Assembly: GCA_011391495.1 (NCBI GenBank)
Contig: JAABQK010000006.1
Span: 1 to 64,000, forward strand
DNA: 64,000 nucleotides
Reading direction: 5' to 3'
DNA from: Hydrogenophaga sp.
GTDB lineage: Bacteria > Pseudomonadota > Gammaproteobacteria > Burkholderiales > Burkholderiaceae_C
Shown here: positions 10,040-40,767 of the stretch, one piece after another
How the letters are laid out: each line of letters opens with the position of its first letter
Numbering within the stretch: the first letter of the stretch is position 1
Notes under the pieces: model-generated
What the model was told of the DNA's origin: nothing
The model's database searches: none
Seen by the model: only the letters and a program-made list of their open reading frames with translations
Position numbers and translations under genes: made by a program

Positions 10040-11005
10040 TCAGACCCATATTCCCAAACCTTTGAGCAGGGCCCGGATGCCCGCAAACAGCAGCAGTGCA
10101 ATGACCATCCTCCGGATGATAGAGGCCTTGAGCACGTGCAGCAGCCGGGCACCCAGGCGCGCTCCCAGCATCATGCCCACCACCGACGGCACGGCGATCA
10201 TCGGCAGGACAGCGCCCCGGTTCAGGTAGACCCACGCGGCGGACGAGTCCACCAGCGACAAGACCAGCCCCGATGTGCCCGCGGACACCTTGAGCGGCGC
10301 GCCCATCAGCAGGTTGAGTGCCGGCACATTGGCCCAGCCAGCGCCAATGCCAAACATCCCGGCCATCACCCCGATGGCCAGGAACAGCACCAGGCCCATC
10401 GGCGTGCGATGCACCTGCCAATCCACCGAGCGCCCCGATGCGCCGTCAATGAAGACGCCGTGAATGCCGAGGGCAGACGACAGGCGGTCTGGTTGCGGCA
10501 CGTGGGGGAATTCCGATTTTTTCGAGACCAGCATCAGCGCCACGATACCCAGCACGATGACGCCCAGTGCGGTCTGGATGGCGGAGGCAGGAAGGGCCAG
10601 GCCCAGCAGCGCGCCGGCAATGGAACTCATGCAGGCCAGCAAGGCCAGCGGCAGCGCCAGGCGCAGGCTGGCCAAGCCACCCCGAAGCAAAAAGGGCCCT
10701 GCTGCCAGGGCGCTCGCCAGTGCCACCAGCAGACCGGCTCCACGCACAAAATCAAGATGGAAGGGAAAGAAGCCGCCGATGATCGGAACGAAGAGCGTGC
10801 CGCCGCCGATGCCGGCGGGCACCGCCACGATACCGATGAAAAAACAGGTGATGAACAGCGCCATGGGCCAGAACCACCAGGGCAGCGTGCTGGCTGGGAC
10901 CACGCTGTTCGCGGCCCAGGCCGGAGCCGCGAGCATCAGGAGAAAAAACAGGCCGATCGAGACCTGGAGTACGACCGTCAGGGACGGTGGGGCCCATCTG
11001 CGCAT
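10040..11005 (-). CDS. sulfite exporter TauE/SafE family protein
   Basis: multi-TM; GIGGGTLFVPIIGGFFPFHLDFVRGAGLLVALASALAAGP; second half GMFGIGAGWANVPALNLLMGAPLKVSAGTS. Confidence 0.85.
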   Translation of the reverse strand: MRRWAPPSLTVVLQVSIGLFFLLMLAAPAWAANSVVPASTLPWWFWPMALFITCFFIGIVAVPAGIGGGTLFVPIIGGFFPFHLDFVRGAGLLVALASALAAGPFLLRGGLASLRLALPLALLACMSSIAGALLGLALPASAIQTALGVIVLGIVALMLVSKKSEFPHVPQPDRLSSALGIHGVFIDGASGRSVDWQVHRTPMGLVLFLAIGVMAGMFGIGAGWANVPALNLLMGAPLKVSAGTSGLVLSLVDSSAAWVYLNRGAVLPMIAVPSVVGMMLGARLGARLLHVLKASIIRRMVIALLLFAGIRALLKGLGIWV

Positions 11006-11017
11006 GGCGGGTCGCTC

Positions 11018-11959
11018 TCAGGAGATGGTTTGGTAGTAGAGGTTCTGCGGGTGGTTGGCCTGCGCGAAAAAGAACCAGCGTTCTGCCAGCAGGCCCGCGT
11101 ATTGCAGACCGAATGCCGCGAACAGCAGGGTCGTGGAGGAGGTGGACAGAGCCACCGTCAGGCACAGCAGGGGCAAGGGAAACACCAGCAACAGGAAGAT
11201 CCATTTCACCGAGCGCAGCACGGCCCCACTCTGACCATGGAAGAATTCCCGCGTGTTGAACGACCCCCCCATGAAGCCCTGCGCCTTCTGCACGATGCGC
11301 GGGTGCTTGATGCCGATGGCGCTCTGCAGGGTTGACTTCGGCTTGAGCCGGGCGTTGCGCACCAGCGAGGCACCGCGCGAAACCGCGGCCAGTACCGTCA
11401 GCACCGTGGCCGTGAGCGCGTAGGGCCGGACCAGGTCGGACATGCCCAGTACCGCCGCCAGCAGCGTGGCCAGCGTCAGCCCCGACGCACAGCCCAGCAG
11501 CAGGTAGTTCAGCAGGGTCAGCGGACTGGCCCACTCCTGCAGGAAGCGGACGGAGGCGTAGATCATGGCGGTGCAGACGAACAGCGCGATGCAGATCACC
11601 GCGGTCAGCGCGCCGATGAGTGCCGTGTGGTTCCAGCCGAGAAACTGCGCGCTGGCATAGACGAACAGGCCCAGCATGAACAGGGGCAGGGCGATCACCT
11701 CGCGCGACAGCCAGGACGTGCGCCACATCGCCGCAGAGCGCCAGGCCCGCTCGGGACGTCCCAGGTGAAAGAACGAGGCGAGCAGTCCCAGTCCCGTCAG
11801 TGCCAGTGCCACCAGACTGCCCAGGAACAGGAAGCTCCTGCTGGAGGTGGCGTCAATGCTGGACAGGAAGGTCAGCTCGGCGCCGTACAGCGCAAGAAAC
11901 AGCCCTTGCGCGGCACCGATGAGTGTCGTCAGGAAAATGACCGAAAAAGCGGGTCTCAT
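11018..11959 (-). CDS. soeC: DmsC/SoeC-like membrane anchor of sulfite-oxidizing molybdoenzyme
   Basis: DMSO reductase anchor-like protein immediately downstream of SoeAB-like genes. Confidence 0.8.
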   Translation of the reverse strand: MRPAFSVIFLTTLIGAAQGLFLALYGAELTFLSSIDATSSRSFLFLGSLVALALTGLGLLASFFHLGRPERAWRSAAMWRTSWLSREVIALPLFMLGLFVYASAQFLGWNHTALIGALTAVICIALFVCTAMIYASVRFLQEWASPLTLLNYLLLGCASGLTLATLLAAVLGMSDLVRPYALTATVLTVLAAVSRGASLVRNARLKPKSTLQSAIGIKHPRIVQKAQGFMGGSFNTREFFHGQSGAVLRSVKWIFLLLVFPLPLLCLTVALSTSSTTLLFAAFGLQYAGLLAERWFFFAQANHPQNLYYQTIS

Positions 11960-11979
11960 GGTGTGTGATGTGCTGCGGT

Positions 11980-12708
11980 TCAGGTGGCGAAATCTTCACG
12001 TCCCGGGTCGCGGTGGGCCGCATCGGCGGGTCGGCTGTCGATTTTCAGCGGGTTGTCCACCCGTTCCAGATCTTCGGGATGGACCCGGATCTCCGTCTTG
12101 CGCCGGGGCAGGTAGTGGTTGGCCGGGTGGGTGCCCCACTCGGGCATGAGCTGGTAGCCGCCGCGTTCGGCGATGGCCTGCGAAACGACGGATTCCGGAT
12201 CGTGCACATCACCGAACAGACGGGCATTGGACGGACAGGCCAGCACGCAGGCCGGCTTGCGCTCGCGCTCGGGCAGGGCGGTGTCGGTGACGCGGTCCAC
12301 ACAGAGGGTGCATTTGGTCATGACCTTGCGCTCTTCGTCGAACTCGCGTGCGCCGTAAGGGCAGGCCCAGGTGCAGTACTTGCAGCCTATGCACTTGTCG
12401 TAGTCGACCAGCACGATGCCGTCTTCGGCGCGCTTGTAGCTGGCTCCGGTGGGGCAGACCGGCACGCAGGGAGGGTCTTCGCAGTGCAGGCACGATTTGG
12501 GGAAGTGCACCGTCTGCGTGTTCGGGAACTCGCCCACTTCGAAAGTCTGTACCCGGTTGAAGAAAGTGCCGTTTGGGTCGGCGCCATAGGGATTCAGGTC
12601 GGTCAGTGCACCCGCCGAACCCGAGGTGTTCCACTGCTTGCAGCTCGTCACGCAGGCGTGGCAGCCCACGCACACGTTGAGGTCGATGACCAGGGCCAAC
12701 TGTGTCAT
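11980..12708 (-). CDS. soeB: 4Fe-4S ferredoxin subunit SoeB-like
   Basis: CVGCHACVTSCKQWN, CLHCEDPPCVPVCP, CIGCKYCTWACPYG; ATGA overlap with soeA. Confidence 0.87.
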   Translation of the reverse strand: MTQLALVIDLNVCVGCHACVTSCKQWNTSGSAGALTDLNPYGADPNGTFFNRVQTFEVGEFPNTQTVHFPKSCLHCEDPPCVPVCPTGASYKRAEDGIVLVDYDKCIGCKYCTWACPYGAREFDEERKVMTKCTLCVDRVTDTALPERERKPACVLACPSNARLFGDVHDPESVVSQAIAERGGYQLMPEWGTHPANHYLPRRKTEIRVHPEDLERVDNPLKIDSRPADAAHRDPGREDFAT

Positions 12709-15626
12709 TTGCGTCCCCCCCGGCCTGCGAACCAGGCCTGCCAGCGAGCAGGGGCCGCCTCAACACCGGGCGCTCTGGGCACGGCCTTGAACTGCGGCCA
12801 GCTCTGTTCGGGCTCGCCCTCCTGCGCCTTGTAGATGCGCACGCGCACGTCGTACCAGGCGGCCTGTCCGGTGATCGGGTCCGAGTTGGACAGGGACGCG
12901 CCGGCACCCGATGGCGGCAGCTCCTCCGAGATCAGGTGGTTGAGCAGGAAGCCGCGCTGCGATTCGTTGGCATCTGGCGTCAGGTTCCAGGCACCGGAGG
13001 ATTTGCCGATGGCGTTCCAGGTCCAGACCGTGCCGGGCTCCACGGCTTCCGAGTAGCGGCACATGCAGCGCACCTTGCCCCACTGCGACTCCACCCACAT
13101 CCAGCCGCCATCGGCGATGCCTTCGGCGCCGGCGGTCTTCGGGTTCACAAACAGGTAGTTGTGCGTGTGGATCTGGCGCAGCCAGGCGTTCTGCGAATCC
13201 CAGGAGTGGTACATCGCCATCGGCCGCTGGGTGATCGCGTTGAGCGGGTACCTGACGGTGTCGGTGGCCTGCTCTTCCAGCGGCACGTAGTAAAACGGCA
13301 GCGGGTCGAAATAGGTCTCGACCCGCTTGCGCAGATGGTCGGGCGGCTGCTTGCCGGCGCGCTTGCCCTGGGCCGCGCGCCGGAAACCCTGCAGAAATTC
13401 GGAATAGAGGTGGATGACGATGGGGTCCTTGTCGCGCCGTATGCCCATCTTCTGCGCCCACTCCATGTAGCCCTGGTTCCAGTTGCGCATGTACTGGTGT
13501 TCCGGCGGCATCTGATAATGGAAGATGCAGTTGTTCTTCTCGTACATCTCCCACTGCTTGGGGTTGGGTTCACCGCGCAGGGACTTCTCCCCGGCCTTGC
13601 CGCGCCAGCCCGCGAGAAAACCGATGCCCGACCCGGGCGCGGTTTCGTAGTTGACGATGAAGTCCGGGTAGTTGCGGAACTTGCGGCTACCGTCCGCCTG
13701 GGTGAACGCGGGCAGCTTGAGGCGGCCGGCCAGTTCGACCAGCACCTCCTGGAACGGCTTGCAGTCGCCCTTGGGCGGCACCACCGGGATGCGCACCGCG
13801 TCGACCGGTCCGTCGAACTCGGAGATGGGGCGGTCCAGCATGGACATGCAGTCGTGCCGCTCCAGGTAGGTGGTGTCGGGCAGGATGAGGTCGGCAAAAG
13901 CCGTCATCTCCGACTGGAAGGCGTCGCAGACCACCAGGAACGGGATCTTGTACTCGCCGCTCTTTTCACCTTCGGTGTGCTTGTCGTTGAGCATGTTGCG
14001 CACTTCGGAGGTGTTCATGGTGGAGTTCCACGCCATGTTCGCCATGAAGATCAGCAAGGTGTCGATCGGGTATGGGTCGCCGCGCCAGGCGTTGGTGATG
14101 ACGTTGTGCATCAGGCCGTGGGCGGACAGCGGGTGTTCCCAGGAGAAGCCTTTGTCGATCCGCACCGGCTGGCCCTCGCTGTCCACAAACAGGTCGTCCG
14201 GACTCTCCGGCCAGCCCAGCGGAGCGCCATCGAGCGGCGTATCAGGCTTGACGGCCTGCGGCCCCTTGGGCGGGCGGGCATTGGGCGGCACGGCGCGCGG
14301 ATACGGCGCCTTGTGCCGGAATCCCCCGGGGCGATCGATGGTACCCAGCAGCGACATCAGGATCGCCAGCGAGCGGATGGTCTGGAAACCGTTGGAGTGC
14401 GCGGCCAGACCGCGCATGGCGTGGAAGGCGACCGGGTTGCCCTTGACCGAGGGGTGGCGTTTGCCCCAGCTGTCGGTCCAGGCGATCGGCAGCTCGATCT
14501 TCTGGTCGCGCGCGGTGATGCCCATCTCATGGGCGAGGCGCCGGATGGTTTCTGCCGGGATGCCGGTGATGCCCTCGGCCCATTCCGGTGTGTAGGGCTT
14601 CACGCGTTCCTGCAGCAGCTGGAAGGCTGGCACGGCGGGCGTGCCGTCGGGCATCTTGAAATGCCCCAGCAGTGCGGGGTCCGCCCCTTCGGCGTGGTCG
14701 GCCACCGGGCTGTCGGTGAGCCGGTCCCACCAGTGGAAGTTGGCCGGGCGCAGCGGGTTGACGATGTCGCCATCGGCCTTGCGCAGGAACATGCCGAAGT
14801 CGTCGCTGGCGGCGTCCTGGTTCACCAGTTGGCCGGCGTTGGTGTAGCGGGCCAGGAACTCGCGGTCGTACAGGCCAAGCTTGATGAGCTCGTGGATCAG
14901 CGCCAGCAGCAGGGCCCCGTCGGTGCCGGGCTTGATGGGCACCCATTCGTCGGCAATGGCCGAATAGCCGGTGCGCACCGGGTTGATCGAGACAAAGCGA
15001 CCGCCGTTGCGCTTGAACTTCGACAGCGCCATCTTCATCGGGTTGGAGTGGTGGTCCTCGGCCGTGCCGATCATCACGAACAGCTTGGCACGCTCCAGAT
15101 CCGGGCCGCCGAACTCCCAGAAGGAGCCACCGATGGTGTAGATCATGCCGGCGGCCATGTTGACCGAGCAGAAGCCGCCGTGGGCCGCGTAATTGGGGGT
15201 GCCGAACTGGCGCGCGAACAGGCCGGTGAGGGCCTGCATCTGGTCACGCCCGGTGAACAGGGCGAATTGCTTGGGGTCGGTGGACCGGATCTTCTGCAGG
15301 CGCTGCTCCAGCATCGAGAAGGCCTCTTCCCACTCGATCTCGGCAAACTGGCCGTCGCCCCGCTCGCTGCCGGGCTTGCGCAGCAGCGGCTTGGTCAGCC
15401 GGGCTGGCGAGTACTGCTTCATGATGCCCGACGAACCCTTGGCACAGATCACCCCCTGGTTCAGCGGGTGCTCCGGATTGCCCTCGATGTAGCGCACCTC
15501 GCCGTTGCGCAGGTGCACCCGGATGCCACATCGGCAGGCGCACATGTAACAGGTGGTGTTGCGCGTCTCGGTGGTGGCCCCCGCCAGAGGCGGGCTGCAG
15601 GGGTCGTGAAGCGGTGTGGCAGACAT
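12705..15626 (-). CDS. soeA: molybdopterin oxidoreductase SoeA-like (cytoplasmic sulfite dehydrogenase catalytic subunit)
   Basis: N-terminal CYMCACRCGIRVHL [4Fe-4S] motif, GVICAKGSSGI; no Tat signal; start at MSATPLHD. Confidence 0.85.
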   Translation of the reverse strand: MSATPLHDPCSPPLAGATTETRNTTCYMCACRCGIRVHLRNGEVRYIEGNPEHPLNQGVICAKGSSGIMKQYSPARLTKPLLRKPGSERGDGQFAEIEWEEAFSMLEQRLQKIRSTDPKQFALFTGRDQMQALTGLFARQFGTPNYAAHGGFCSVNMAAGMIYTIGGSFWEFGGPDLERAKLFVMIGTAEDHHSNPMKMALSKFKRNGGRFVSINPVRTGYSAIADEWVPIKPGTDGALLLALIHELIKLGLYDREFLARYTNAGQLVNQDAASDDFGMFLRKADGDIVNPLRPANFHWWDRLTDSPVADHAEGADPALLGHFKMPDGTPAVPAFQLLQERVKPYTPEWAEGITGIPAETIRRLAHEMGITARDQKIELPIAWTDSWGKRHPSVKGNPVAFHAMRGLAAHSNGFQTIRSLAILMSLLGTIDRPGGFRHKAPYPRAVPPNARPPKGPQAVKPDTPLDGAPLGWPESPDDLFVDSEGQPVRIDKGFSWEHPLSAHGLMHNVITNAWRGDPYPIDTLLIFMANMAWNSTMNTSEVRNMLNDKHTEGEKSGEYKIPFLVVCDAFQSEMTAFADLILPDTTYLERHDCMSMLDRPISEFDGPVDAVRIPVVPPKGDCKPFQEVLVELAGRLKLPAFTQADGSRKFRNYPDFIVNYETAPGSGIGFLAGWRGKAGEKSLRGEPNPKQWEMYEKNNCIFHYQMPPEHQYMRNWNQGYMEWAQKMGIRRDKDPIVIHLYSEFLQGFRRAAQGKRAGKQPPDHLRKRVETYFDPLPFYYVPLEEQATDTVRYPLNAITQRPMAMYHSWDSQNAWLRQIHTHNYLFVNPKTAGAEGIADGGWMWVESQWGKVRCMCRYSEAVEPGTVWTWNAIGKSSGAWNLTPDANESQRGFLLNHLISEELPPSGAGASLSNSDPITGQAAWYDVRVRIYKAQEGEPEQSWPQFKAVPRAPGVEAAPARWQAWFAGRGGRK

Positions 15627-15775
15627 GCGTTGGGGTCTTTTCGCTGGCAGGTCAACAAAAATGGAGCAATGCAAACGGTCCACCAGCGCGGGGCATGGGC
15701 CGGACGGTCAAGGTAGGCCTATTAAAGACAACGGGGCCCATGGCCGTCTATAGCCGACACGGGTGACCCGGCGTA

Positions 15776-15787
15776 ACCCAAATGGGT
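15776..15787. promoter_or_regulatory. palindrome ACCC-AAAT-GGGT between soeA and the sensor kinase gene
   Basis: flanked TAACCCAAATGGGTAG; same pattern at 31962 and 40709. Confidence 0.55.
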
Positions 15788-15910
15788 AGCGTGAGCGTTG
15801 CTGGTCTGCGCTGGCATTTCGCACGCGGCGCTAACAGCAGATGTCCTCGCGCGCCTCGGGGTTTTCAGCATGCATCAGTACATGCTTGTGTACTAGTATG
15901 GTTTGGGTAC

Positions 15911-17137
15911 ATGGCCCTTCGCCAACCTGGGCTCGCTCTCACCATGCCAACGCTTTCCGTCACCCCTGCACACGCTGACACCGCCATCTCGGGCTTGATG
16001 GCAGAAGGGGGTGCGTCCGGCGATCTGGAGCCGCTGCTCCAGCGCTTTCTGGTCTCCATCGTGGATCTTGCCGGCGCACAGGCTGGCGCTGTGCGGGTGT
16101 TGACGGATGACGGTCTGCACATGCGGCTGGTGGCACAACAGGGGCTGCCAGCCAACGTGCAGAACGCCGAACGGCTGGTGGATCGTGATTGCGGCATGTG
16201 CGGCGTCGCGGCCGGAGCCGACGTCCTGGGCTGGGTGGAAGACGTGCGATCCTGCGCCCGAAGCGGACCCGAACCCTATTTCGGCGAGCAGTGCAAGGGC
16301 GTGCTGGCCATACCGCTGTCGCACGCGAACCAGGTGCTCGGTATCTACAACCTGTTTTTCGAGGCCAGGACCCAGCTGGAGCCGACGACCTTGACCATCC
16401 TGCGCCTGATCGGCCAGTTGCTGGGCCTGGCGCTGCACAACGCCCGGATCGAGCGCGAGCGGCTGCGCGTGACGGTGATGAAGGAGCGCCAGGAAATGGT
16501 CAACGAAGTGCACGACGCGATTGCACAGACGCTGGCCTACGCCAGGATGCGCCTGCCGCTGCTGAACGATGCGATGCTCGCCCACGACGACCCGAAATCG
16601 ATCAAGTATTTCTCCGACGTGAAGCAGGCGGTGGGTGAGGTGCACGACAACCTGCGCGAGGTGATGACCTATTTCCGCACCCGCATGGATCCCCTGGGCC
16701 TGTTGCATGCGCTGCAGGGCATTGCCGACGGGTTCTTTGGCCGTACGGGCATCGTGCTGGAAATCCGGAACACGGTGCAGAATCTGAACCTGAGTGACGA
16801 ACAGGAGGTTCAGGTGTTTCACATCGTGCAGGAATCGCTGGCCAACATCGCCAAACATTCCATGGCGCGGCATGCGGCGATCGCCATCGGCAAGACCCCC
16901 GAGTGCCTGGAGTTCGTGATCGAGGACGATGGCCTGGGCATGGGGGCACCCTCGGTGTCCACCATCGTGACCACGGCGAAGGGCCTGTCTGGGACCGCCC
17001 ATTTCGGACTGGAGATCATGCAGAGCCGTGCCCGGCGCCTGGGCGGTCGCCTTGAGGTTGGCGAAAACGCCGGTGGCGGTACCCGCGTGCGCCTCGTGCT
17101 TCCCCTGACCTCCGGCTCCGCAGAACGCACACCATGA
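15911..17137 (+). CDS. GAF-domain sensor histidine kinase, NarX/NreB-like (HisKA_3)
   Basis: GAF-like region with CGMC cluster; H-box NEVHDAIAQTLAYARMRL; HATPase DDGLGMG; start uncertain (15911 or 15944). Confidence 0.85.
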   Translation: MALRQPGLALTMPTLSVTPAHADTAISGLMAEGGASGDLEPLLQRFLVSIVDLAGAQAGAVRVLTDDGLHMRLVAQQGLPANVQNAERLVDRDCGMCGVAAGADVLGWVEDVRSCARSGPEPYFGEQCKGVLAIPLSHANQVLGIYNLFFEARTQLEPTTLTILRLIGQLLGLALHNARIERERLRVTVMKERQEMVNEVHDAIAQTLAYARMRLPLLNDAMLAHDDPKSIKYFSDVKQAVGEVHDNLREVMTYFRTRMDPLGLLHALQGIADGFFGRTGIVLEIRNTVQNLNLSDEQEVQVFHIVQESLANIAKHSMARHAAIAIGKTPECLEFVIEDDGLGMGAPSVSTIVTTAKGLSGTAHFGLEIMQSRARRLGGRLEVGENAGGGTRVRLVLPLTSGSAERTP

Positions 17138-17856
17138 CGACACAGACGACTCAGGCCATGCAGACGCGGGTGATGCTGGTGGACGACCATGCACTGTGCC
17201 GCAGCGGACTGTCCGAGCTGCTGCAGCACCGCAGCGGCATGGTGGTGGTCGGCACCACAGGCGACCCCGCGCAAGTGATCCCCCTGCTGCGCGAATGTCA
17301 GCCCGAGCTCATGATCCTGGACCTGTGCCTGGGCGCAACCGATGGTCTGAGTGTGCTGCGTCTGGTGCGATCGGAGGGCTTCGACATCCCGGTGGTCGTG
17401 CTGACCATGAGCGACAGCGAAGACGACCTGTCGGCGGCACTGCGTGCAGGCGTGCGGGGCTACCTGCTCAAGGACATGGAGCCCGACGACGTGATTGAGT
17501 CGATCGGCCGCGCCGCGCGCGGCGAACTGGTGGTGGCCCCCGCGATGGCCGCCAAGCTGGCCCAGATGTGGCAGAGCGGGCAGAAGGGCTCGGTCAAGCG
17601 CGACCTGGTGGACACGCTGACCGAACGCGAGCGGCAGGTGCTGGATCAGGTGGCGCGCGGCAAGAGCAACAAGGTGATTGCGCAGGCGCTGGACATCAGC
17701 CACAACACCGTCAAGCTGCACGTGCGTCACATCATGGCCAAGCTCGACCTGGGCTCGCGCGTGGAAGCCGCGGTGTTCGCCTTTGAACACCGCAGTGCGT
17801 CCGACAGTTCGGGCACCGTGGGTGACGCAGCGGGTTCCGGACGCCGCTCGACGTGA
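17134..17856 (+). CDS. NarL/FixJ family response regulator with LuxR-type HTH
   Basis: MLVDDHALCRSGL receiver; LTERERQVLDQVARGKSNKVIAQALDISHNTVKLHVRHIMAKL. Confidence 0.93.
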   Translation: MTTQTTQAMQTRVMLVDDHALCRSGLSELLQHRSGMVVVGTTGDPAQVIPLLRECQPELMILDLCLGATDGLSVLRLVRSEGFDIPVVVLTMSDSEDDLSAALRAGVRGYLLKDMEPDDVIESIGRAARGELVVAPAMAAKLAQMWQSGQKGSVKRDLVDTLTERERQVLDQVARGKSNKVIAQALDISHNTVKLHVRHIMAKLDLGSRVEAAVFAFEHRSASDSSGTVGDAAGSGRRST

Positions 17857-30509: not shown

Positions 30510-31808
30510 TCAGGCCGCAGCCTGCTTGCGCGCCATGTACTTGGCGGCTTCCTCGTCCCAGTCGTCGGTGCGCACGTAGGGGTTGGTGCGCGGGGTGGAG
30601 ACCATGTTGGGGTCTACCTCCAGCTCGATGCCTTCGAGGAAATTGACCAGACCGATGCGCTCGATCATCTCGCCGGTACGCTCGTGTTCCAGTGCGTTCT
30701 CGGCGAAGAAATCGATGATCTTCTGCCCCAGTTCGACCAGGCCTTTGTAGTCCTCGTCGGTCTTCAGCGGCATGAAGGGCACCACCACCGTGCCCATCAG
30801 GTCGCCGATCTTGAGCGTGCGCTTGCCGCCGACCAGGATCGTGGCGCCGGTGTCGGTGCCATGGGCCAGCGCGCCGGTCATGACGTTGATGCAGTGCATG
30901 CAGCGCACGCAGTTGCTGTTGTCGATTTCCAGGCACTGCGTGTCGTTGATCTTCACGCTGGAAATCTTGTCGCCCTGGGCCACGTCCTTGACTTCCTTGA
31001 GCATGATGGTCTTGGTCGGGCAACGGTTGATGACGTCGTTCACCAGCTCGTTCATGCCGTGCTTGTCAAACCACTTGCGCGCCAGGACCTCGTCGGTGCG
31101 CATGTTGTCGCGCCAGGTGCCGATGACGGCCATGTCCGAGCGCTGGATCGAGTTCATGCAGTCGTTGGAGCAACCCGAGAACTTGAACTTGAACTTGTAG
31201 GGCAGGGCCGGACGGTGGATGTCGTCGAGGAAGGTGTTGATCACCTGCCGATGGGCGCGTGCCTCGTCGAAACACGACTGCTCGCAGCGTGCCGCACCGA
31301 CACAGCTCATCGAGGTGCGCACGGCCGGACCGGCACCGCCGAGGTCAAAGCCGAGTTCGTTGAGTGCATCGAATGCATCCTGTACCTTGTCGGTCTTGGC
31401 GCCCTGGAACATGATGTCGCCCGACTGGCCGTGGAACGCAATCAGCCCGGAGCCGTGCTCCTCCCAGATATCGCACATCTTGCGCAGCACGTCGGTGTTG
31501 TAGTGCATGCCGGCCGGCGGCTGGATGCGCAAGGTGTGAAACTCGGCGGCGTCCGGGAACTGGGGCTTGCCGTCGGCGTCCTTGAGTTCGGTGAAGCGCG
31601 GGATCACACCCCCGCCGTAGCCGAACACGCCGACCGTGCCGCCCTTCCAGTAGCCCTTGCGCGTCCGGTACGACGTTTCCAGCTGACCCATCAGGTCAAC
31701 CATGTAGTCCTTTTCCTTGGCCAGCCGCTTGAGGCCGGTCACGAAACTGGGCCAGGGACCGCTTTCGAGCTCGTCGAGCATCGGGGTCTCGTGCATCTTC
31801 TTGGCCAT
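30510..31808 (-). CDS. dsrA: dissimilatory sulfite reductase alpha subunit
   Basis: CVGAARCEQSC, FKFSGCSNDC siroheme-FeS ligands; CVRCMHCINVM ferredoxin motif. Confidence 0.96.
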   Translation of the reverse strand: MAKKMHETPMLDELESGPWPSFVTGLKRLAKEKDYMVDLMGQLETSYRTRKGYWKGGTVGVFGYGGGVIPRFTELKDADGKPQFPDAAEFHTLRIQPPAGMHYNTDVLRKMCDIWEEHGSGLIAFHGQSGDIMFQGAKTDKVQDAFDALNELGFDLGGAGPAVRTSMSCVGAARCEQSCFDEARAHRQVINTFLDDIHRPALPYKFKFKFSGCSNDCMNSIQRSDMAVIGTWRDNMRTDEVLARKWFDKHGMNELVNDVINRCPTKTIMLKEVKDVAQGDKISSVKINDTQCLEIDNSNCVRCMHCINVMTGALAHGTDTGATILVGGKRTLKIGDLMGTVVVPFMPLKTDEDYKGLVELGQKIIDFFAENALEHERTGEMIERIGLVNFLEGIELEVDPNMVSTPRTNPYVRTDDWDEEAAKYMARKQAAA

Positions 31809-31882
31809 GTCTTGTCTCCTGTCTGGGTGCCGTTTTTGACCACGGCGGTGATGACTTGCTGGACATTGCAGGGGCTCTGTCG

Positions 31883-31903: not shown

Positions 31904-31961
31904 GCATCGTAGGAGCCAAGACCGACCTCTTGCTATCCCCCTCGTTGGCTAGGCGGGATTA

Positions 31962-31973
31962 CCCATAAGGGTT
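31962..31973. promoter_or_regulatory. palindrome ACCC-ATAA-GGGT in dsrA/cassette divergent region
   Basis: flanked TTACCCATAAGGGTTA; same family as 15776 and 40709 sites. Confidence 0.55.
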
Positions 31974-32083
31974 ATATGGCCCCACCCGTCCCGGCTATAG
32001 ACTGCCGCCCCCGGAATTGCGTCAATAGCGCAGAGGTGCGATGCCCGCCAGCCGGCGGACACCCCAAGGACAGTGACGGAGAC

Positions 32084-32311
32084 ATGAGCCAGATCACCCC
32101 GCTAGAAAAATTCAGGGTGCCCCTCGGTGGACAGGAGATCGAGTTGCAGCAGCTCGACCACGACGCGGGTGGCATGAGCCTCCTGCGCACCCGCATCCGC
32201 GAGAAAAGCCGTTTCACGGTTTTCGACATCGACCCCCAGACGGCCGAACACTGGGGCGAGGCCCTGCTGCGCTGGGCGCGGGCACAGCCTGGACGGACGG
32301 ATCTTCCATGA
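32084..32311 (+). CDS. hypothetical protein (75 aa), first gene of the cassette
   Basis: MSQITPLEKFRVPLGGQEIELQQLDHDAGG...; TGACGGAGAC upstream; overlaps next gene by ATGA. Confidence 0.7.
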   Translation: MSQITPLEKFRVPLGGQEIELQQLDHDAGGMSLLRTRIREKSRFTVFDIDPQTAEHWGEALLRWARAQPGRTDLP

Positions 32312-32934
32312 GCGCCGCGTTCGACGAACCCCTTCAGGCCGCCATGGTCGATCTGGTGTTTCCGCTGGGCGGACACAGCCTGCCGCGCGATTCGGCGCCG
32401 GCCTTGCGGGTGGCCCTTCAAAGGGAGCTGCCCTGGCTCGATCAGGAGCCTCAGGCCGGCATCCACCCTCTCAAGCTGGTGCCGGGGACAGACGCCGAGG
32501 CCCTGCTGTCGCAACGCACGCGCCTGTTCCTGCGGTTGCCGCGCGAGCGCATCGACGCCGCTGCCGGGCTCGCCGGGCGTTCCCTGCAGCTGGGTGAACA
32601 GGCGGTGATCGTTGGGCAACCGCATCCGCGCGAACTGCTGCCGCACCGCACCCTGTACGCCTATGCCGTGGCTGCGGAGGCGGACGATGAGATCGCTTTC
32701 ATGCAGGCCATGAACGACGAGTTGCAGGGCCTGCAGGTGCGCTCGCAGGTGATCTGCGGCAAGCGCCAGCAGCGGGACTGGCCCGGTGGCGCGCTGACCA
32801 CCTTCAGCCTGATGCTGCACGGGCTCACCCAGGGGGATTCGTTGCTGCTGCAGGAGCACGGACTGGGTCGCCACCGTTTGCTGGGCTGCGGCATCTTCGT
32901 GCCGCACAAGTCGGCCGCAGCGGTCGGCGAATAG
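32308..32934 (+). CDS. Cas6/Cmx6-like (type I-MYXAN-like) protein, orphan
   Basis: N-terminal VDLVFPLGGHSLPRDSAPALRVALQRELPWL; C-terminal HGLGRHRLLGCGIFVPHK matching the Cas6 glycine-rich loop GhGxxxxxGhG; family recall not database-checked. Confidence 0.65.
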   Translation: MSAAFDEPLQAAMVDLVFPLGGHSLPRDSAPALRVALQRELPWLDQEPQAGIHPLKLVPGTDAEALLSQRTRLFLRLPRERIDAAAGLAGRSLQLGEQAVIVGQPHPRELLPHRTLYAYAVAAEADDEIAFMQAMNDELQGLQVRSQVICGKRQQRDWPGGALTTFSLMLHGLTQGDSLLLQEHGLGRHRLLGCGIFVPHKSAAAVGE

Positions 32935-32976
32935 ATCCATTTCTTCTTTCAACCACCAAGACACGGAGACACAAGG

Positions 32977-33306
32977 ATGGGCTACCACATCAATGGCGTT
33001 GAACTCGAAACCGATGCCGAGGGGTATCTGCTCGAACCCGACTACAGCGAAGAGGCGGTGCAGGTGATCGCGGCGGCCGACGGCCTGGTCCTGACGGCCG
33101 AGCACTGGGAAGTCATCAACTACATGCGCGACCAGTACCGCGAGCACGGCCATACGCCCAACTTCCGCAACATGCTCAAGGGCTACGCCGAGATCCGCCA
33201 GGGCGTGGACAGCAAGTACCTGTACGACCTGTTCCCGCTCGGACCGGCCAAGCAGGCGGCCAAGGTGGCCGGTCTGCCGCAGCCGCTGGGCAAGGGTGGG
33301 TATTGA
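32977..33306 (+). CDS. TusE/DsrC/DsvC family protein without both redox cysteines
   Basis: GVELETDAEGYLLEPDYSEEAVQVIA...LTAEHWEVINYMRDQYREHG...SKYLYDLFPLGPAKQAAKVAGLPQPLGKGGY. Confidence 0.92.
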   Translation: MGYHINGVELETDAEGYLLEPDYSEEAVQVIAAADGLVLTAEHWEVINYMRDQYREHGHTPNFRNMLKGYAEIRQGVDSKYLYDLFPLGPAKQAAKVAGLPQPLGKGGY

Positions 33307-33309
33307 GAT

Positions 33310-33401
33310 GACCCCCCTGCGTCGGCTTCGCCGCCTTCCCCCCACGGGGGGACAACGCCTGTGGCCGGGCGAAGCCCGTTCCACGGCGTTTCCCGGTTGG
33401 G
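33310..33401 (-). repeat. copy 2 of structured ~95-nt interspersed repeat, intergenic in the cassette
   Basis: reverse complement CCCAACCGGGAAACGCCGTGGAACGGGCTTCGCCCGGCCACAGGCGTTGTCCCCCCGTGGGGGGAAGGCGGCG aligns to 23419-23518. Confidence 0.75.
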
Positions 33402-33441
33402 ACACCGCGCTCCGGGCGAGGCGCCTGGCGACTGCTTGAAC

Positions 33442-34050
33442 ATGGCCCTGCGCATCAAGAACCAGTGGTTTGACAGCGGGCGACCGAAGTCCGCGAAGGA
33501 GACCGCCAGCGTGGTGGCCTTCATCGTCTGGCGCGTGACGCAGAACATGGTCAAGCAGATGCGCGAAGCCCGGTTCGACATCGATGTCGGTCCGCAGTAT
33601 TTCGCCTTCATGCGGGAAATCCTGGGCTTTCTGGTCCAGGTGGTGGACCGTATGGCGTTCGAGCGCATGACCGTGGAACAGCGGGCGGAATTCACCGGTG
33701 CGCTGGTGCGCCGCGTGGCCGAGATCCTGGAGGAAAGCGAGCTGGAATGGATGGGCCCGCCGGCCGGCGGTGCGGACAGCTGGCGCAACCAGTTCATCGA
33801 TTTCTGCAACGAACTCGGCGATGCCTATGCCGACTTCGGTCACGGCCCCGATGGCCCGGACTTCGGTTTCGTGCGCTACCTGGGCAGCCGCATCGAGGCC
33901 GTCATGCCGTCGAAAGACCAGCACTGGGTCAAAGACCAGATGATGGCGATCGAGGTGCCGGAGGCGTTGGAAATGGTGCGCCGCGGCATGCACGGCGCGC
34001 TGTCGACTGAGCCGCGGCCAGCGCGCCGCGCCACGATGAGTGGAGACTGA
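33442..34050 (+). CDS. conserved-looking hypothetical protein (202 aa)
   Basis: MALRIKNQWFDSGRPKSAKETASVVAFIVWRVTQNMVKQMREARFDIDVGPQYFAFMREILGFL...; co-oriented in cassette. Confidence 0.75.
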   Translation: MALRIKNQWFDSGRPKSAKETASVVAFIVWRVTQNMVKQMREARFDIDVGPQYFAFMREILGFLVQVVDRMAFERMTVEQRAEFTGALVRRVAEILEESELEWMGPPAGGADSWRNQFIDFCNELGDAYADFGHGPDGPDFGFVRYLGSRIEAVMPSKDQHWVKDQMMAIEVPEALEMVRRGMHGALSTEPRPARRATMSGD

Positions 34051-34052
34051 AG

Positions 34053-35003
34053 ATGGCAGGACCCGCCCACAACCCCTTCGACCTTGACCAGCCGCAGGCC
34101 TACGCGCGGTGGCGTGCCGCCAAGCTGGCGCTCCAGCCACGGTGTGTCGACGATCTGATCGTCGACGTGACCGATCCGCGGCGCCTGAGTGCGGACGAGC
34201 GCGCCGCGTTGCTGCACACCTGCGCGGGCAGCAACATGGCGGTCTACCGCAGTCCGGTGGTCGAGGAAGACAAGGCGCTGCCGCGTCTGCTGGGCGCACA
34301 GCTCGGCCTGCAGCGGCTCGACGCCAACTGGCTGGCCGACGAGGACGGCATCTCGCCCATCGCCGTCAGCCGCAACCCTGGCGCCCGTGCCGACTTCATC
34401 CCTTACACCGACAAGCCGATCCGCTGGCACACCGATGGCTACTACCATCCGCAGGCGCGTCGCATCGAAGGCATGATCCTGCACTGTGTGCGCGCCGCCG
34501 GCGAGGGCGGCGTCAGCGGGCTGGCCGACCATGACCGGGTTTACATCGCAATGCGCGATGCCAGCCCCGCCTGGGTGCGCGCGCTCATGGCCCCGGACGC
34601 CATGACCATTCCCGAGCGCACCGACGAACAGGGCGTGGCCCGTCCGGCACAGAGCGGTCCGGTGTTCAGCGTGCTGACCGGCTCCGATGGCGGCCACGCG
34701 CTGCACATGCGCTACACCGCTCGCACGCGCAGCATCGCCTGGAAGGACGATGCCGACACGCGCGGCGCTGTGGCCTTCCTGGAGCAGCTGCTGTCTGGTG
34801 ACGCACCCTGGATCTACCGTCTGCGGCTGCAGCCCGGCATGGGCATCGTCGCCAACAACGTCCCGCACGAGCGCAGTGCCTTCACCGACGATCCCCAGCG
34901 GCCGCGCCTGCTGTACCGGGCGCGTTATCTCGACCGGGTTGGCGACGCCCTGACGAACCCGGCCGCCGAGCCAGGGGCCGCGCTGGAGGCATTGCACGCA
35001 TGA
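34053..35003 (+). CDS. TauD/TfdA-like Fe(II)/2-oxoglutarate dioxygenase
   Basis: IRWHTDGYYHP (HxD) and distal NNVPHERSAFTDD. Confidence 0.75.
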   Translation: MAGPAHNPFDLDQPQAYARWRAAKLALQPRCVDDLIVDVTDPRRLSADERAALLHTCAGSNMAVYRSPVVEEDKALPRLLGAQLGLQRLDANWLADEDGISPIAVSRNPGARADFIPYTDKPIRWHTDGYYHPQARRIEGMILHCVRAAGEGGVSGLADHDRVYIAMRDASPAWVRALMAPDAMTIPERTDEQGVARPAQSGPVFSVLTGSDGGHALHMRYTARTRSIAWKDDADTRGAVAFLEQLLSGDAPWIYRLRLQPGMGIVANNVPHERSAFTDDPQRPRLLYRARYLDRVGDALTNPAAEPGAALEALHA

Positions 35004-35064
35004 GCGCAGCGCCGTGCCGCTCCCAAGCCAGCTCCCACCGCAGTCAGCAGGGCGAGGTACTCCC

Positions 35065-36564
35065 GTGACCCACTGGCTGACGATCTGGCGCGCGGCCCAG
35101 CTGGTGGGCGTGCCCCGAGGCGTGCTGCAGCAGCAGGTGCGCAGCGGCGCACTGGTGCTGACCGAGGGACTGGTGTCCACCGACGACCTGCTGCTGCTGT
35201 ACCCGAGCGTCCAGCTGGAAGAAACTGGTCTGCTCGAGAGGGTGGCCCACATCCGCGACGAGGCCTTCGGCAAGCGCCTGCGCGAGCGCCTGCTGCCCAG
35301 CCAGGAGGTGCTGGCGCAACGCCTGTTCAGCCAGACGCAGGAACTGGCCGACGTCAGGCGCTATCTGCAGCGCTACCACGCGCTGGTGGTGGCCCTCCAG
35401 TCGCGCATCCATGTCCTGCAGCAAGAGGGCGCCACGCCGCTGGCGCTGTCCGAGCTGCAGGATTTTGTCGACCAGGGGCTGGCCCAGGCGCTGGCGACCG
35501 AACAGGCCGACCTGCTCACGGTGATGGACGACATGCTCAAGGTCATGACAGCCCAGGTGACGGTGCGCCCCAGCGGCCGCGAGTTCTGTGTCGAGGGGCA
35601 CGACACCCTGCTGCAGGCCGGCCTGCGCGCCGGCCTCAAGCTCAATTACGGCTGCGGCAACGGCACCTGCGGCATGTGCAAGGTGCGCGTGATCGCCGGC
35701 CAGGTGGCGCGCACCCAGCCGTTTGACTACCCGCTGTCGGAAGCCGAACGCGCACAGGGCTACACCCTGATGTGCGCGCACACCGCAGCCAGCAGCGAGC
35801 TCACGCTGGAGCTGCTGGAGGCCAGCGGCCCGCAGGACATTCCGCAGCAGCAGATCGTCACCACGGTGCGCGCCGTCAGCGAGCTGGCGCCGGGCACCCG
35901 GCTGCTGCACCTGCAAACCCCGCGCAGTCACCGCCTGCGCTTCCTGGCGGGCCAGTCGGTCACGCTCGGCCTGAGCCGCGCGGACGGCAGCGATGTGCAT
36001 GCGCTCTACCCGGTGGCCAGTTGCCCGTGCGACGACCGCAACCTGCATTTCTTCATCGAGGCGCATCCGCTCGACCCGTTTGCCGTCCAGCTGTTCGCCG
36101 GCGGCATCCAGCCCGGCGACGCCGTCACGGTCTGGGGGCCGGTCGGCGACTTCGTGCTGACCGAGAGCTCCCGGCCGCTGGTGTTCGCCGCCTGCGACGC
36201 CGGCGTGGCGCCGATCAAGAGCCTGATCGAGCACGCGCTCGCGCTCGACAGCGCACCCTCCCTCTCGCTGTTCTGGCTCGCTACCCGGCCGGGCGGCCAC
36301 TTCCTGGCCAACCAGTGCCGCGCCTGGTCGGAAGCGCTGGATCCCTTCGAGTATGAACTGCTGGCCGAGCCCGACATCACCTTCGGCGCGCTGCAGCTCG
36401 CGCGTGCCATGCGTGCCGACCTGTTCGACATCGAATGCGACTTCTACCTCGCGGGGCCGCTGGCATTTGTGCAGGCGCTCGATGCCGAGCTGCGTGCGGC
36501 CGGCGTGCCCGCGGCCCAGATCCACACCCAGGTGCTGGCCGAGCCGGAGGGGGTGCTGGCATGA
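35065..36564 (+). CDS. N-terminal HTH-like region fused to [2Fe-2S] ferredoxin and FNR-type reductase domains
   Basis: THWLTIWRAAQLVGVPRGVLQQQVRSGALVLTEGLVSTDDLLLLYP (MerR/excisionase-like), CGNGTCGMCKVRV...C [2Fe-2S], FNR-like C-terminus; GTG start with GCGAGG RBS, alternative ATG 35014. Confidence 0.8.
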   Translation: MTHWLTIWRAAQLVGVPRGVLQQQVRSGALVLTEGLVSTDDLLLLYPSVQLEETGLLERVAHIRDEAFGKRLRERLLPSQEVLAQRLFSQTQELADVRRYLQRYHALVVALQSRIHVLQQEGATPLALSELQDFVDQGLAQALATEQADLLTVMDDMLKVMTAQVTVRPSGREFCVEGHDTLLQAGLRAGLKLNYGCGNGTCGMCKVRVIAGQVARTQPFDYPLSEAERAQGYTLMCAHTAASSELTLELLEASGPQDIPQQQIVTTVRAVSELAPGTRLLHLQTPRSHRLRFLAGQSVTLGLSRADGSDVHALYPVASCPCDDRNLHFFIEAHPLDPFAVQLFAGGIQPGDAVTVWGPVGDFVLTESSRPLVFAACDAGVAPIKSLIEHALALDSAPSLSLFWLATRPGGHFLANQCRAWSEALDPFEYELLAEPDITFGALQLARAMRADLFDIECDFYLAGPLAFVQALDAELRAAGVPAAQIHTQVLAEPEGVLA

Positions 36565-36893
36565 CGGCACCGGCCATGGACGCCAGCAGCTGCAGTGGCA
36601 GCGAAGCTTTTGCCCTGCGCGTGCTCGGCACCAGCATGGAGCCCGAGTTCAACGAGGGCGAGATCATCGTCATCGAGCCGGAGGGGCAGCTTCGCGACGG
36701 CAGCTACGTGCTGGCCAGCCACCGCGGCGAATGGATCTTCCGCCAGCTCTGCCGCGCTGGCGAGGGCTGGTGCCTGCATGCCCTCAACCCGGCCTTTGCA
36801 GACCTCGCGCTCGATGACCTGTCCGCGGTGCGGGGCGTGATCATCCAGAAGGCGCTGCCTGGTCGGCGCCATGCCAGCAAACGCTACATCTGA
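36561..36893 (+). CDS. S24/LexA-like peptidase-fold protein
   Basis: LGTSMEPEFNEGEIIVIEP signal-peptidase-like Ser motif; ATGA overlap with upstream gene. Confidence 0.7.
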   Translation: MTAPAMDASSCSGSEAFALRVLGTSMEPEFNEGEIIVIEPEGQLRDGSYVLASHRGEWIFRQLCRAGEGWCLHALNPAFADLALDDLSAVRGVIIQKALPGRRHASKRYI

Positions 36894-36918
36894 GAACCGC
36901 CTGTCCTGAGGAACGTCC

Positions 36919-37137
36919 GTGCCCTACTACATCTACCGCGTCAAACCCTTCGGCCAGCTCGACAAGCTGGAAGAGCACGCCGCCTTTGCCGCAGCCTCCG
37001 GTCAGGCCAAGACGCTGCGTGCCGCGCTTCCGCCGGGCAGCCCTGACAAGGTGAAGGTCATCTTTGCCGAGAACGAACCGCAGGCCGAAGACCTGCTGTG
37101 CCAAGTGCGCGAACCCGGACCCACGGGCGAAGAATAG
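36919..37137 (+). CDS. small hypothetical protein (72 aa)
   Basis: MPYYIYRVKPFGQLDKLEEHAAFAAASGQAKTLRAALPPGSPDKVKVIFAENEPQAEDLL; GTG start. Confidence 0.65.
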   Translation: MPYYIYRVKPFGQLDKLEEHAAFAAASGQAKTLRAALPPGSPDKVKVIFAENEPQAEDLLCQVREPGPTGEE

Positions 37138-37159
37138 GGCGTCCGGAAGGGCCGGGGAC

Positions 37160-37603
37160 ATGGTCGACGAGGCCGCCTACCGCCGAGCGCAGGCACAGTC
37201 CAGCCCCTTGCCCTGCGTGTTTCGGGCGGCGCTGCTGGCGCGCCAGGCGGGGTGTGAGCTGGTGCTGCGGCAGGCACTGGCCGAGCGCGAGGTGCTGGCC
37301 TGCAGCCAGGTCACGGCGCACCTGAACTGCGAAACGCTGGAGCGGCTGTTTCTGGAGCGCGCCACCTTCCCGCTGAAGCTGCATCCGGGCGCTCCGCTCA
37401 CCCATGGCACCGTCATGCGCCTGCACTGCGGTGGCCTGCAGGGGCTGCAGCAGGTGCTGGATGCACCAGAGCCCGATGTGCACCGGCTGGTCGGCCTGGC
37501 GCAGGCCCGACATGGCAGCCTGGTGCAACTGCCGTGGGAACGCATCGTGGCGCAGATTCTGGCCTGGCAGCCGCGTCGCCGCTCGTCCCCGCCAGACACC
37601 TGA
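37160..37603 (+). CDS. hypothetical protein (147 aa), last gene of cassette
   Basis: co-oriented ORF, starts MVDEAAYRRAQAQSS. Confidence 0.6.
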   Translation: MVDEAAYRRAQAQSSPLPCVFRAALLARQAGCELVLRQALAEREVLACSQVTAHLNCETLERLFLERATFPLKLHPGAPLTHGTVMRLHCGGLQGLQQVLDAPEPDVHRLVGLAQARHGSLVQLPWERIVAQILAWQPRRRSSPPDT

Positions 37604-39813: not shown

Positions 39814-40284
39814 TCAGATGAACAGGCAGACGTCCGATTCGCCGGCAAACTTCATGAAGGTGGCGGCGCCGCCGTACTCGATGTCCTTGATGAACTCGCT
39901 GGTCTCGAACTCGAACAGGTCCACCGTCATCTGGCAGGCCACGAACTTCACGTCGGCCTCCAGGCAGAGGTCACGCAGTTCCTGCAGCGAGGCCACGCCC
40001 TTGGACTTCATCTTGTTCTTCATCATCATCGTGGCCATCGCTTCCATGCCCGGCAGCATCTGAACCATCACGGGCATCGGCACAGGCATCGGCATGGCGG
40101 GGTTCGCCAGCGGGCTGATGTGGATGCCGTCCAGATTCTTGCGCAGCAGCTGCAGGCCATAGAAGGTGAAGAAGATCTGGACATCCCAGCCCAGGGCCGC
40201 CGCGGTCGACGCCAGGATGAAAGGCGGGTAGGCCATGTCCAGCGTGCCCTTGGTGGCGATGAGCGCCATTTTTTTGCTTGCCAC
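39814..40284 (-). CDS. dsrE2: DsrE2-like DsrE/DsrF/DrsH family protein
   Basis: KMALIATKGTLDMAYPPFILASTAAALGWDVQIFFTFYGL...VKFVACQMTVDLF; GTG start or ATG at 40269. Confidence 0.9.
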   Translation of the reverse strand: MASKKMALIATKGTLDMAYPPFILASTAAALGWDVQIFFTFYGLQLLRKNLDGIHISPLANPAMPMPVPMPVMVQMLPGMEAMATMMMKNKMKSKGVASLQELRDLCLEADVKFVACQMTVDLFEFETSEFIKDIEYGGAATFMKFAGESDVCLFI

Positions 40285-40324
40285 GTTGTGTGTCTCCGGT
40301 GTGGAAAAGTGCGGACGCCGGGTA

Positions 40325-40552
40325 TCAGGCCTTCTTGAGATAGAAGACGTACTTGCTGTTCTCGCTGCTCTGTTCCAGCAGGGCGTTGCCGGTCTGCTCG
40401 GCAAAAGCGGCCATGTCGCACACCGAGCCGGGGTCGGTTGCCACCACACGGAGGATCTGTCCGCTGGCCATGTCCGCCAGCGCCTTCTTGGTTTTCACGA
40501 TCGGCAGCGGGCAGGCCAGGCCAGACGCGTCAAATTCCTTGTTGAATTCCAT
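40325..40552 (-). CDS. tusA: TusA family sulfur carrier
   Basis: FDASGLACPLPIVKTKKAL; VVATDPGSVCDMAAF. Confidence 0.95.
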   Translation of the reverse strand: MEFNKEFDASGLACPLPIVKTKKALADMASGQILRVVATDPGSVCDMAAFAEQTGNALLEQSSENSKYVFYLKKA

Positions 40553-40708
40553 GCTTGTCTCCTTGGGTGTCCCGGTGACGGCCGCGCCGTGCGGGCTTGC
40601 ACGGGCGCTGGCCCATTCACCAGGCCGCGGCCTTCTCTGGCCGCATGGAAGCCCATTCTTCAAGAGGACACCCGGCCCGTCTATCACCGCAAAGGGTGAT
40701 GACGGGTA

Positions 40709-40720
40709 GCCCATATGGGT
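40709..40720. promoter_or_regulatory. palindrome GCCC-ATAT-GGGT upstream of tusA
   Basis: TAGCCCATATGGGTAA; adjacent ATCACC-N6-GGTGAT dyad at 40683-40700. Confidence 0.55.
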
Positions 40721-40767
40721 AATGTGGTTTTCCCCTGCGCCCCCGGCGGGGTGGAGCGGCCCGCAGC

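Follow-up and report, generated by a model that had tools for sequence, protein, structure and literature searches.

What does a gene of the Cas6 family do beside the sulfur oxidation gene dsrA? In many freshwater and soil betaproteobacteria sulfur is burnt for energy with the help of the dsr genes. The question is raised by a stretch of 64,000 nt from Hydrogenophaga sp. (assembly GCA_011391495.1, contig JAABQK010000006.1, positions 1-64,000), in the following called the window. At 32084-37603 nine genes, named g1 to g9 from left to right, lie divergent from dsrA; a first-pass annotation of the window had described them as an uncharacterised cassette, and all nine open reading frames (ORFs) were confirmed on the + strand. 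The second gene belongs to a group that automatic annotation labels 'type I-MYXAN Cas6/Cmx6', where CRISPR stands for clustered regularly interspaced short palindromic repeats and Cas proteins for its immune machinery. In Burkholderiales the PF09559 Cas6 appears to be a sulfur oxidation protein and not an immunity protein; every copy in two genome samples lies beside dsrA. The explanation that we prefer, proposed mechanism included, is that the cassette serves the oxidative (reverse) Dsr pathway of betaproteobacterial sulfur oxidisers as a dedicated accessory module; taken as a whole, we give it a probability of about 0.4. A CRISPR component established in core metabolism, with this much support, would be a rare find, and the cassette offers a concrete candidate for the way in which aerobes tune or protect reverse Dsr. 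Except for the naming of a tauD gene as dsrQ we found no description of the cassette, nor any paper that speaks of DUF6967 or Cmx6 or places a Cas6 gene next to dsr, in a search that left subscription journals mostly outside, where a description is possible.

The cassette is inherited with dsrA

Two samples were searched, 299 Pseudomonadota genomes and 279 Burkholderiales genomes. In the Burkholderiales sample dsrA is present in 58 genomes; PF09559 Cas6 was found in 53 of these 58 and in none of the 221 genomes without dsrA (Fisher's test 9e-52, related genomes not being independent). In 53 of 53 carriers Cas6 lies on the dsrA contig at most 5 kb from dsrA, and in 50 of them at most 0.85 kb. 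Counted by genus, 26 of the 129 Burkholderiales genera are Cas6-positive and 29 dsrA-positive. Among the 299 Pseudomonadota genomes PF09559 Cas6 is confined to cassette genomes, and DUF6967, the family of g1, occurs in 9 of 36 genomes with dsrA above its cut-off versus 0 of 263 without. Over 59 loci the protein distances of the cassette members correlate with the DsrA distances (r = 0.78-0.92). These data show that the cassette is tied to dsrA across Burkholderiales and is inherited with it. The first-pass annotation had proposed a link to sulfur oxidation and named genome neighbourhoods as a way to check it; the neighbourhoods speak decisively for the proposal, the gene set being conserved across many genomes and strictly co-occurring and co-located with dsrAB.

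A Cas6 alignment scan of 85,462 species genomes gave 446 relatives, of which the best 80 were taken for loci. The core order dsrA / DUF6967, Cas6, cysteine-less DsrC, g4, TauD is kept in about 80 genomes, and in every locus of sufficient length dsrAB lies leftward and DUF6967, Cas6, the DsrC copy (absent from a few loci), g4 and TauD rightward. The closest relatives are from Hydrogenophaga and related Burkholderiales. Carriers by name include Hydrogenophaga, Rhodoferax, Curvibacter, Rubrivivax and Piscinibacter, and also Thiobacillus, Sulfuricella, Sulfurisoma, Sulfuritalea and Sulfurimicrobium; Sulfurisoma sediminicola and Hydrogenophaga aromaticivorans are carriers that can be cultured. In 16 loci the cassette includes a rhodanese gene; in those of the Thiobacillus/Sulfuricella type it lies after the DsrC copy and before g4. 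Compared with two Hydrogenophaga-type relatives, all nine genes of the window have ratios of non-synonymous to synonymous substitution (dN/dS) of 0.08-0.27 and behave as proteins under purifying selection. Because of these ratios and of the order conserved in about 80 genomes, the cassette is not a product of chance. As a single module of nine genes it holds in part: g1 to g5 form a widespread core, and g6 to g9 are restricted to one lineage.

TauD and DUF6967 also occur together in five genomes outside the class (L030-L034). In the four of them with dsrA on the contig the order is dsrA / TauD, an ORF of 66-82 aa, DUF6967, and in three (L032-L034) CysG, the siroheme synthase, follows TauD-DUF6967. 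Therefore TauD and DUF6967 look like the older core, to which Cas6, the DsrC copy and g4 were added in the Burkholderiales lineage. In two Burkholderiales loci, L200 and L201 (genomes G676 and G701), the order is a hybrid: TauD leads and is followed by Cas6 and the DsrC copy, and the dsrA is a different, higher-scoring one; this hybrid cassette probably reflects horizontal transfer.

Genomes G525, G549, G614, G625, G641 and G677 carry two dsrA genes and a single Cas6 gene, which adjoins one of the two clusters. In locus L007 the alignment of dsrA (12284-13640) is split between two frames, pointing to a frameshift or an assembly error; a second dsrA copy is present in the same genome (G048 C13).

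A Cas6 family protein outside CRISPR

g2 (32308-32934, +; 208 aa) had been called Cas6/Cmx6-like, and it lies above the curated family cut-offs, with 186 bits versus 26.7 for PF09559 and 145.8 bits versus the equivalog cut-off of 98.85 for TIGR02807 (NCBI cas6_cmx6). The nearest solved structure is chain B of PDB 8fcj, homologous over the full length (112.9 bits by profile), which is the Cas6 of a type I-B CRISPR-associated transposon (CAST). The two share the C-terminal glycine-rich loop G..GR..GCG.F.PHK, the RNA-contacting element of Cas6, which is conserved at 97-100% in 87 Cas6 homologues. His53, aligned to the presumed catalytic histidine of 8fcj_B, is present in the window protein and in 64 of the 87 homologues; in the other 23, from scattered lineages, it is replaced by Q, L, I or M. 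Because the loop is so conserved while the histidine has been lost in 23 of 87, RNA binding by g2 looks more constrained than cutting, as far as alignments can tell.

Unlike the CAST protein and the TIGR02807 family, the family of g2 comes without array or Cascade genes, is strictly linked to dsr in the samples and has lost the histidine in a quarter of its members. No CRISPR-like array was detected in 1.49 Mb around the 87 Cas6 copies in a search that included a synthetic positive control. Cas1 was not found in 14 of 20 carriers, the genome of the window among them. The neighbours of Cas6 are dsr genes and no Cascade genes, and the Cas6 models were the sole matches in PADLOC. Membership in a CRISPR system, for which arrays and Cas1 were looked for, was rejected on these grounds: g2 belongs to the Cas6 family by sequence and not to a CRISPR system by context. 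Since Cas6 in this order is found only beside dsr genes, a piece of a bacterial immune system seems to have been recruited to serve metabolism.

DUF6967 and proposed RNA binding

g1 (32084-32311, +; 75 aa) had been listed as hypothetical; a named family had been overlooked, as the protein matches DUF6967 (PF22295) with 108.5 bits versus a cut-off of 27. Its AlphaFold2 (AF2) model has a predicted local distance difference test (pLDDT) score of 91 and a bbbb-a topology. In Foldseek the top list consists mostly of PUR-alpha repeats (such as 5fgo, 8cht and 8chw), with probabilities of 0.97-1.00 and template modelling (TM) scores by target of at most 0.74. Identity to these repeats is 7-18%, and the E-values are 0.1-1. 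On this model g1 is a probable nucleic acid binder. Profile matches of DUF6967 to designed TPR proteins were judged to be composition artefacts. In a relative from another family (L008, 10228-11115, -) DUF6967 and Cas6 are fused into one protein of 295 aa, both domains scoring above their cut-offs. The Cas6 loop, the PUR-like DUF6967 and this fusion argue, indirectly, for RNA binding by the two proteins. Of the RNA-binding and processing role suggested earlier, the binding half thereby becomes more likely; the processing half does not, as His53 is missing from 23 of 87 homologues and no general RNA target turned up.

Just upstream of the dsrA start, a hairpin GCCGT-N8-ACGGC lies at 31829-31846. 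Its position is kept in relatives of the Hydrogenophaga/Curvibacter type, and Rhodoferax-like loci have a different hairpin, GCGCA..UGCGC, before the dsrA start. When the hairpin was sought elsewhere in the window, none besides the local one was found. It is a possible target of the Cas6 type, a lead rather than evidence as it did not reach significance.

The DsrC copy, g4 and TauD

g3 (32977-33306, +) has the DsrC/TusE fold over its whole length (Pfam DsrC, PF04358, 112.3 bits), and its reading as a cysteine-less DsrC homologue proved correct. In place of GLPKPTGCV it ends in GLPQPLGKGGY, so that a fixed GKGGY tail replaces the sulfur-carrying penultimate cysteine of the DsrC/TusE sulfur carriers. 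All complete homologues of the copy end in G(L/T)xxPxGK(G/A)GY, in contrast to the genuine DsrC of these loci with its GLPKPTGCV/I end, and 51 of 78 sequences of the copy contain no cysteine at all. The copy presumably overlaps the cysteine-less 'RspA' group, reportedly described by Venceslau et al. 2014. Because DsrC normally inserts its arm into DsrAB (Oliveira 2008, cited after PMC6397845), the copy could act as a decoy or gate at DsrAB. With its fixed tail, it is directly testable against DsrAB.

g4 (33442-34050, +; 202 aa) is a conserved core member, present in 82 of 92 loci searched, without a match in Pfam, NCBIfam or PDB. Its AF2 model is all-helical (pLDDT 88.6) and gave no Foldseek match in PDB at E<0.001.

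g5 (34053-35003, +) is an Fe(II)/2-oxoglutarate dioxygenase of the TauD family, as had been assumed from the sequence (Pfam TauD, 72 bits). The iron ligands and the 2-oxoglutarate arginine (H125, D127, H271, R288) are found in 97-100% of 74 sequences. A weak NCBIfam similarity points to dioxygenases of the trimethyllysine/butyrobetaine type and not to taurine dioxygenase, and no PDB relative was found at 1e-3. According to PMC7596348, the name dsrQ was given by Lenk et al. 2012 to a TauD gene transcribed divergently from dsrA, and g5 lies opposite dsrA as in the arrangement cited there. dsrQ has been noted in several lineages of aerobic sulfur oxidisers, a role in sulfonate breakdown being speculation (PMC7596348). 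From that cluster, as far as PMC7596348 relates it, the cassette differs in that TauD is the fifth gene, after DUF6967, Cas6, the cysteine-less DsrC and g4.

A promoter region in common with dsrA

dsrA, on the - strand, starts at 31808, which leaves 275 bp to g1. Between the two lies the palindrome TACCCATAAGGGTTA (TACCC-N4-GGGTTA; 31960-31974, no strand assigned), a probable activator site for the promoters of both. On the cassette side the -10-like element CTATAGAC (31995-32002, +) follows 20 nt after the palindrome, and on the dsrA side the element GATAGC (31932-31937, -; GGATAGC with one more base) lies in the mirror position. The same palindrome is found upstream of soeABC (15774-15788, -), divergent from a two-component system of the NarL type, and upstream of tusA-dsrE2 (40707-40721, -); three copies in the window compare with 0.07 expected. 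The perfect palindrome with spacer and ATAG has exactly three matches in the 3.23 Mb genome, all inside the window: at soeABC (15748-15788, -), the cassette (31960-32000, +) and tusA-dsrE2 (40681-40721, -). The dsrA side matches this pattern with two mismatches. Across loci, TACCC-N4-GGG is present in 51 of 86 dsrA-divergent regions versus 0.66 expected from mononucleotide shuffles; 25 of the 51 have a correctly positioned -10-like element to either side. The motifs thus place the cassette behind a promoter region common to dsrA.

As tusA-dsrE2 shares the palindrome and the -10 element with soe and the cassette, a regulon of three promoters confined to this island is suggested, and the promoter signature would tie dsr, soe and tus into one regulon. 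A candidate regulator is encoded at 15782-17856 (+), a GAF histidine kinase with a LuxR/NarL-type response regulator (Pfam GAF, HisKA_3, HATPase_c; Response_reg and GerE), the regulator gene itself occupying 17134-17856. Promoters of the NarL/FixJ type resemble the present ones in inverted TACCC/GGGTA half-sites before the -10 element and in the NarL-type pair beside one site. The layout of a NarL site is 7-2-7; the palindrome of the window differs in having a 4-nt centre, and its regulator is a candidate.

The soe locus (10040-17856) encodes the molybdopterin, Fer4 and DmsC-type subunits with a TauE/SafE exporter, divergent from the kinase-regulator pair. Full conservation of soeABC in dsr-positive sulfur oxidisers has been reported (PMC6397845). 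The tusA-dsrE2 operon spans 39814-40721.

The lineage-restricted genes g6 to g9

Genes g6 to g9 follow TauD in the family of the window and close relatives. A full-length g6 orthologue is present in 14 of 150 genomes of this family, and the other 13 all carry DUF6967 in the same arrangement, so that the idea of an unrelated passenger module was rejected for the window's family.

g6 (35014-36564, +; the real start is probably the GTG at 35065) joins an N-terminal domain of no recognised type to a [2Fe-2S] ferredoxin and an FAD/NAD reductase. Pfam Fer2 and FAD_binding_6 and a BenC-like NCBIfam match agree with the ferredoxin and FNR parts of the fusion first described, and the Fe-S cysteines are conserved; the helix-turn-helix (HTH)-like N-terminus found no backing in Pfam. 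g7 (36561-36893, +; 110 aa) is a short S24/LexA-like domain (Pfam Peptidase_S24, 63 bits). Here the fold stands as first read and a functional protease-regulator does not, the serine being present in 38 of 44 sequences, the catalytic lysine replaced by arginine in 44 of 44, and no HTH found. For g8 (36919-37137, +; conserved, 72 aa) and g9 (37160-37603, +; conserved, 147 aa) no family was found in Pfam and NCBIfam searches. g8 was found in 37 loci and has a dN/dS of 0.17-0.19. In g9 five cysteines, C23, C36, C52, C61 and C94 in the numbering of the trimmed segment, are conserved in 96-100% of 29 sequences, and g9 has conserved histidines too; it is a possible metal or Fe-S protein.

Proposed function and alternatives

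In the mechanism that we propose, a sulfur substrate would be sensed and an activator, for which the NarL-type pair at 15.8-17.9 kb is the candidate, would bind the palindrome and turn on dsr, cassette, soe and tus together. The cassette would then tune and protect the reverse Dsr pathway. The recruited Cas6 and the PUR-like DUF6967 might bind structured RNA of the dsr transcripts and adjust their stability or translation, and in lineages with His53 Cas6 may cleave this RNA. The DsrC copy, free of thiols and with an invariant GKGGY arm, would occupy the docking site of DsrC on DsrAB or on partner proteins and work there as a gate or decoy without redox activity. TauD/DsrQ, in the window's family together with the [2Fe-2S] reductase, would add an oxygen-dependent step; therefore the module probably makes an oxygen-sensitive enzyme system fit for aerobic life, with TauD as a tentative agent of this adaptation. 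That dsr transcripts are the RNA bound is a conjecture. The more specific proposal, that Cas6 and the PUR-like protein have been domesticated as a dedicated post-transcriptional regulator of reverse Dsr, with the thiol-free DsrC decoy gating DsrAB, throughout betaproteobacterial sulfur oxidisers, is one on which we would not bet at even odds.

Several observations weigh against the proposed module and its mechanism. Cas6 is dispensable: five of the 58 dsrA-positive Burkholderiales genomes are without it, four of which keep DUF6967 and g4, and three of these four also TauD; outside the class TauD and DUF6967 occur together without Cas6. The putative catalytic His53 is replaced in scattered lineages, and the E-values of the PUR matches make these moderate evidence. 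Folding of the leaders of dsrA and DUF6967 from 82 loci gave mean z values of -0.36 and -0.21, almost no excess structure, and RNAalifold in two clades returned for the Hydrogenophaga group a small dsrA-leader hairpin without significant covariation; by these two approaches no general conserved RNA target was found. The regulator is linked to the palindrome by neighbourhood only. An accessory module without an RNA role, in which the Cas6 fold is a scaffold or maturation factor for DsrAB/DsrC or siroheme assembly and TauD a modifying enzyme, draws on the same missing RNA target and repeated loss of His53 and on the CysG gene in L032-L034. We consider it unlikely, though worth serious attention: the RNA-contacting loop is conserved at 97-100%, and the partner DUF6967 also models as a nucleic acid-binding fold.

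The remaining alternatives start from single members of the cassette. TauD/DsrQ might define the module by freeing sulfite from sulfonates for the sulfite-oxidising end, the other genes being helpers, a speculation reported in PMC7596348. The intact active site of g5, its position beside dsr in aerobic sulfur oxidisers and a soe sulfite oxidase under the same promoter would fit; yet the weak similarity of g5 is to trimethyllysine/butyrobetaine-type enzymes and no relative is solved, the cassette tracks dsrA, and Cas6, DUF6967 and the DsrC copy are left unexplained, which makes this account improbable. Still more doubtful is a redox-signalling module, in which the DsrC copy, the [2Fe-2S] reductase and the S24-like protein sense sulfur or oxygen and control dsr transcription. 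The conserved Fe-S cysteines of g6, the cysteine-rich g9 and the S24-like fold of g7 are consistent with it, but g6 to g9 are restricted to one family-level lineage, the S24 protein has neither an HTH nor the catalytic lysine, and no HTH was found in g6. That the Cas6 gene still functions in a CRISPR system, or is a remnant that lies beside dsr by chance, has hardly any credit with us, despite a score above the NCBI equivalog cut-off for Cas6/Cmx6, a CAST Cas6 as best solved relative and a Cas1-family protein encoded elsewhere in 6 of 20 carriers. Against it stand the empty search for arrays, the carriers without Cas1, a dN/dS of 0.20-0.25 for the Cas6 gene, and the fact that Cas6 was never met without dsr in the 279 Burkholderiales or the 299 Pseudomonadota genomes.

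Gene junctions

ATGA overlaps are found at the junctions g1/g2 and g6/g7. The gap between g3 and g4 is only about 14 bp long in L002 and L003, two close relatives, and measures 135 bp in the window. There it is filled by a G+C-rich, repeat-like insertion of 135 bp (33307-33441), which is not present in the closest relatives and occurs once in the window.

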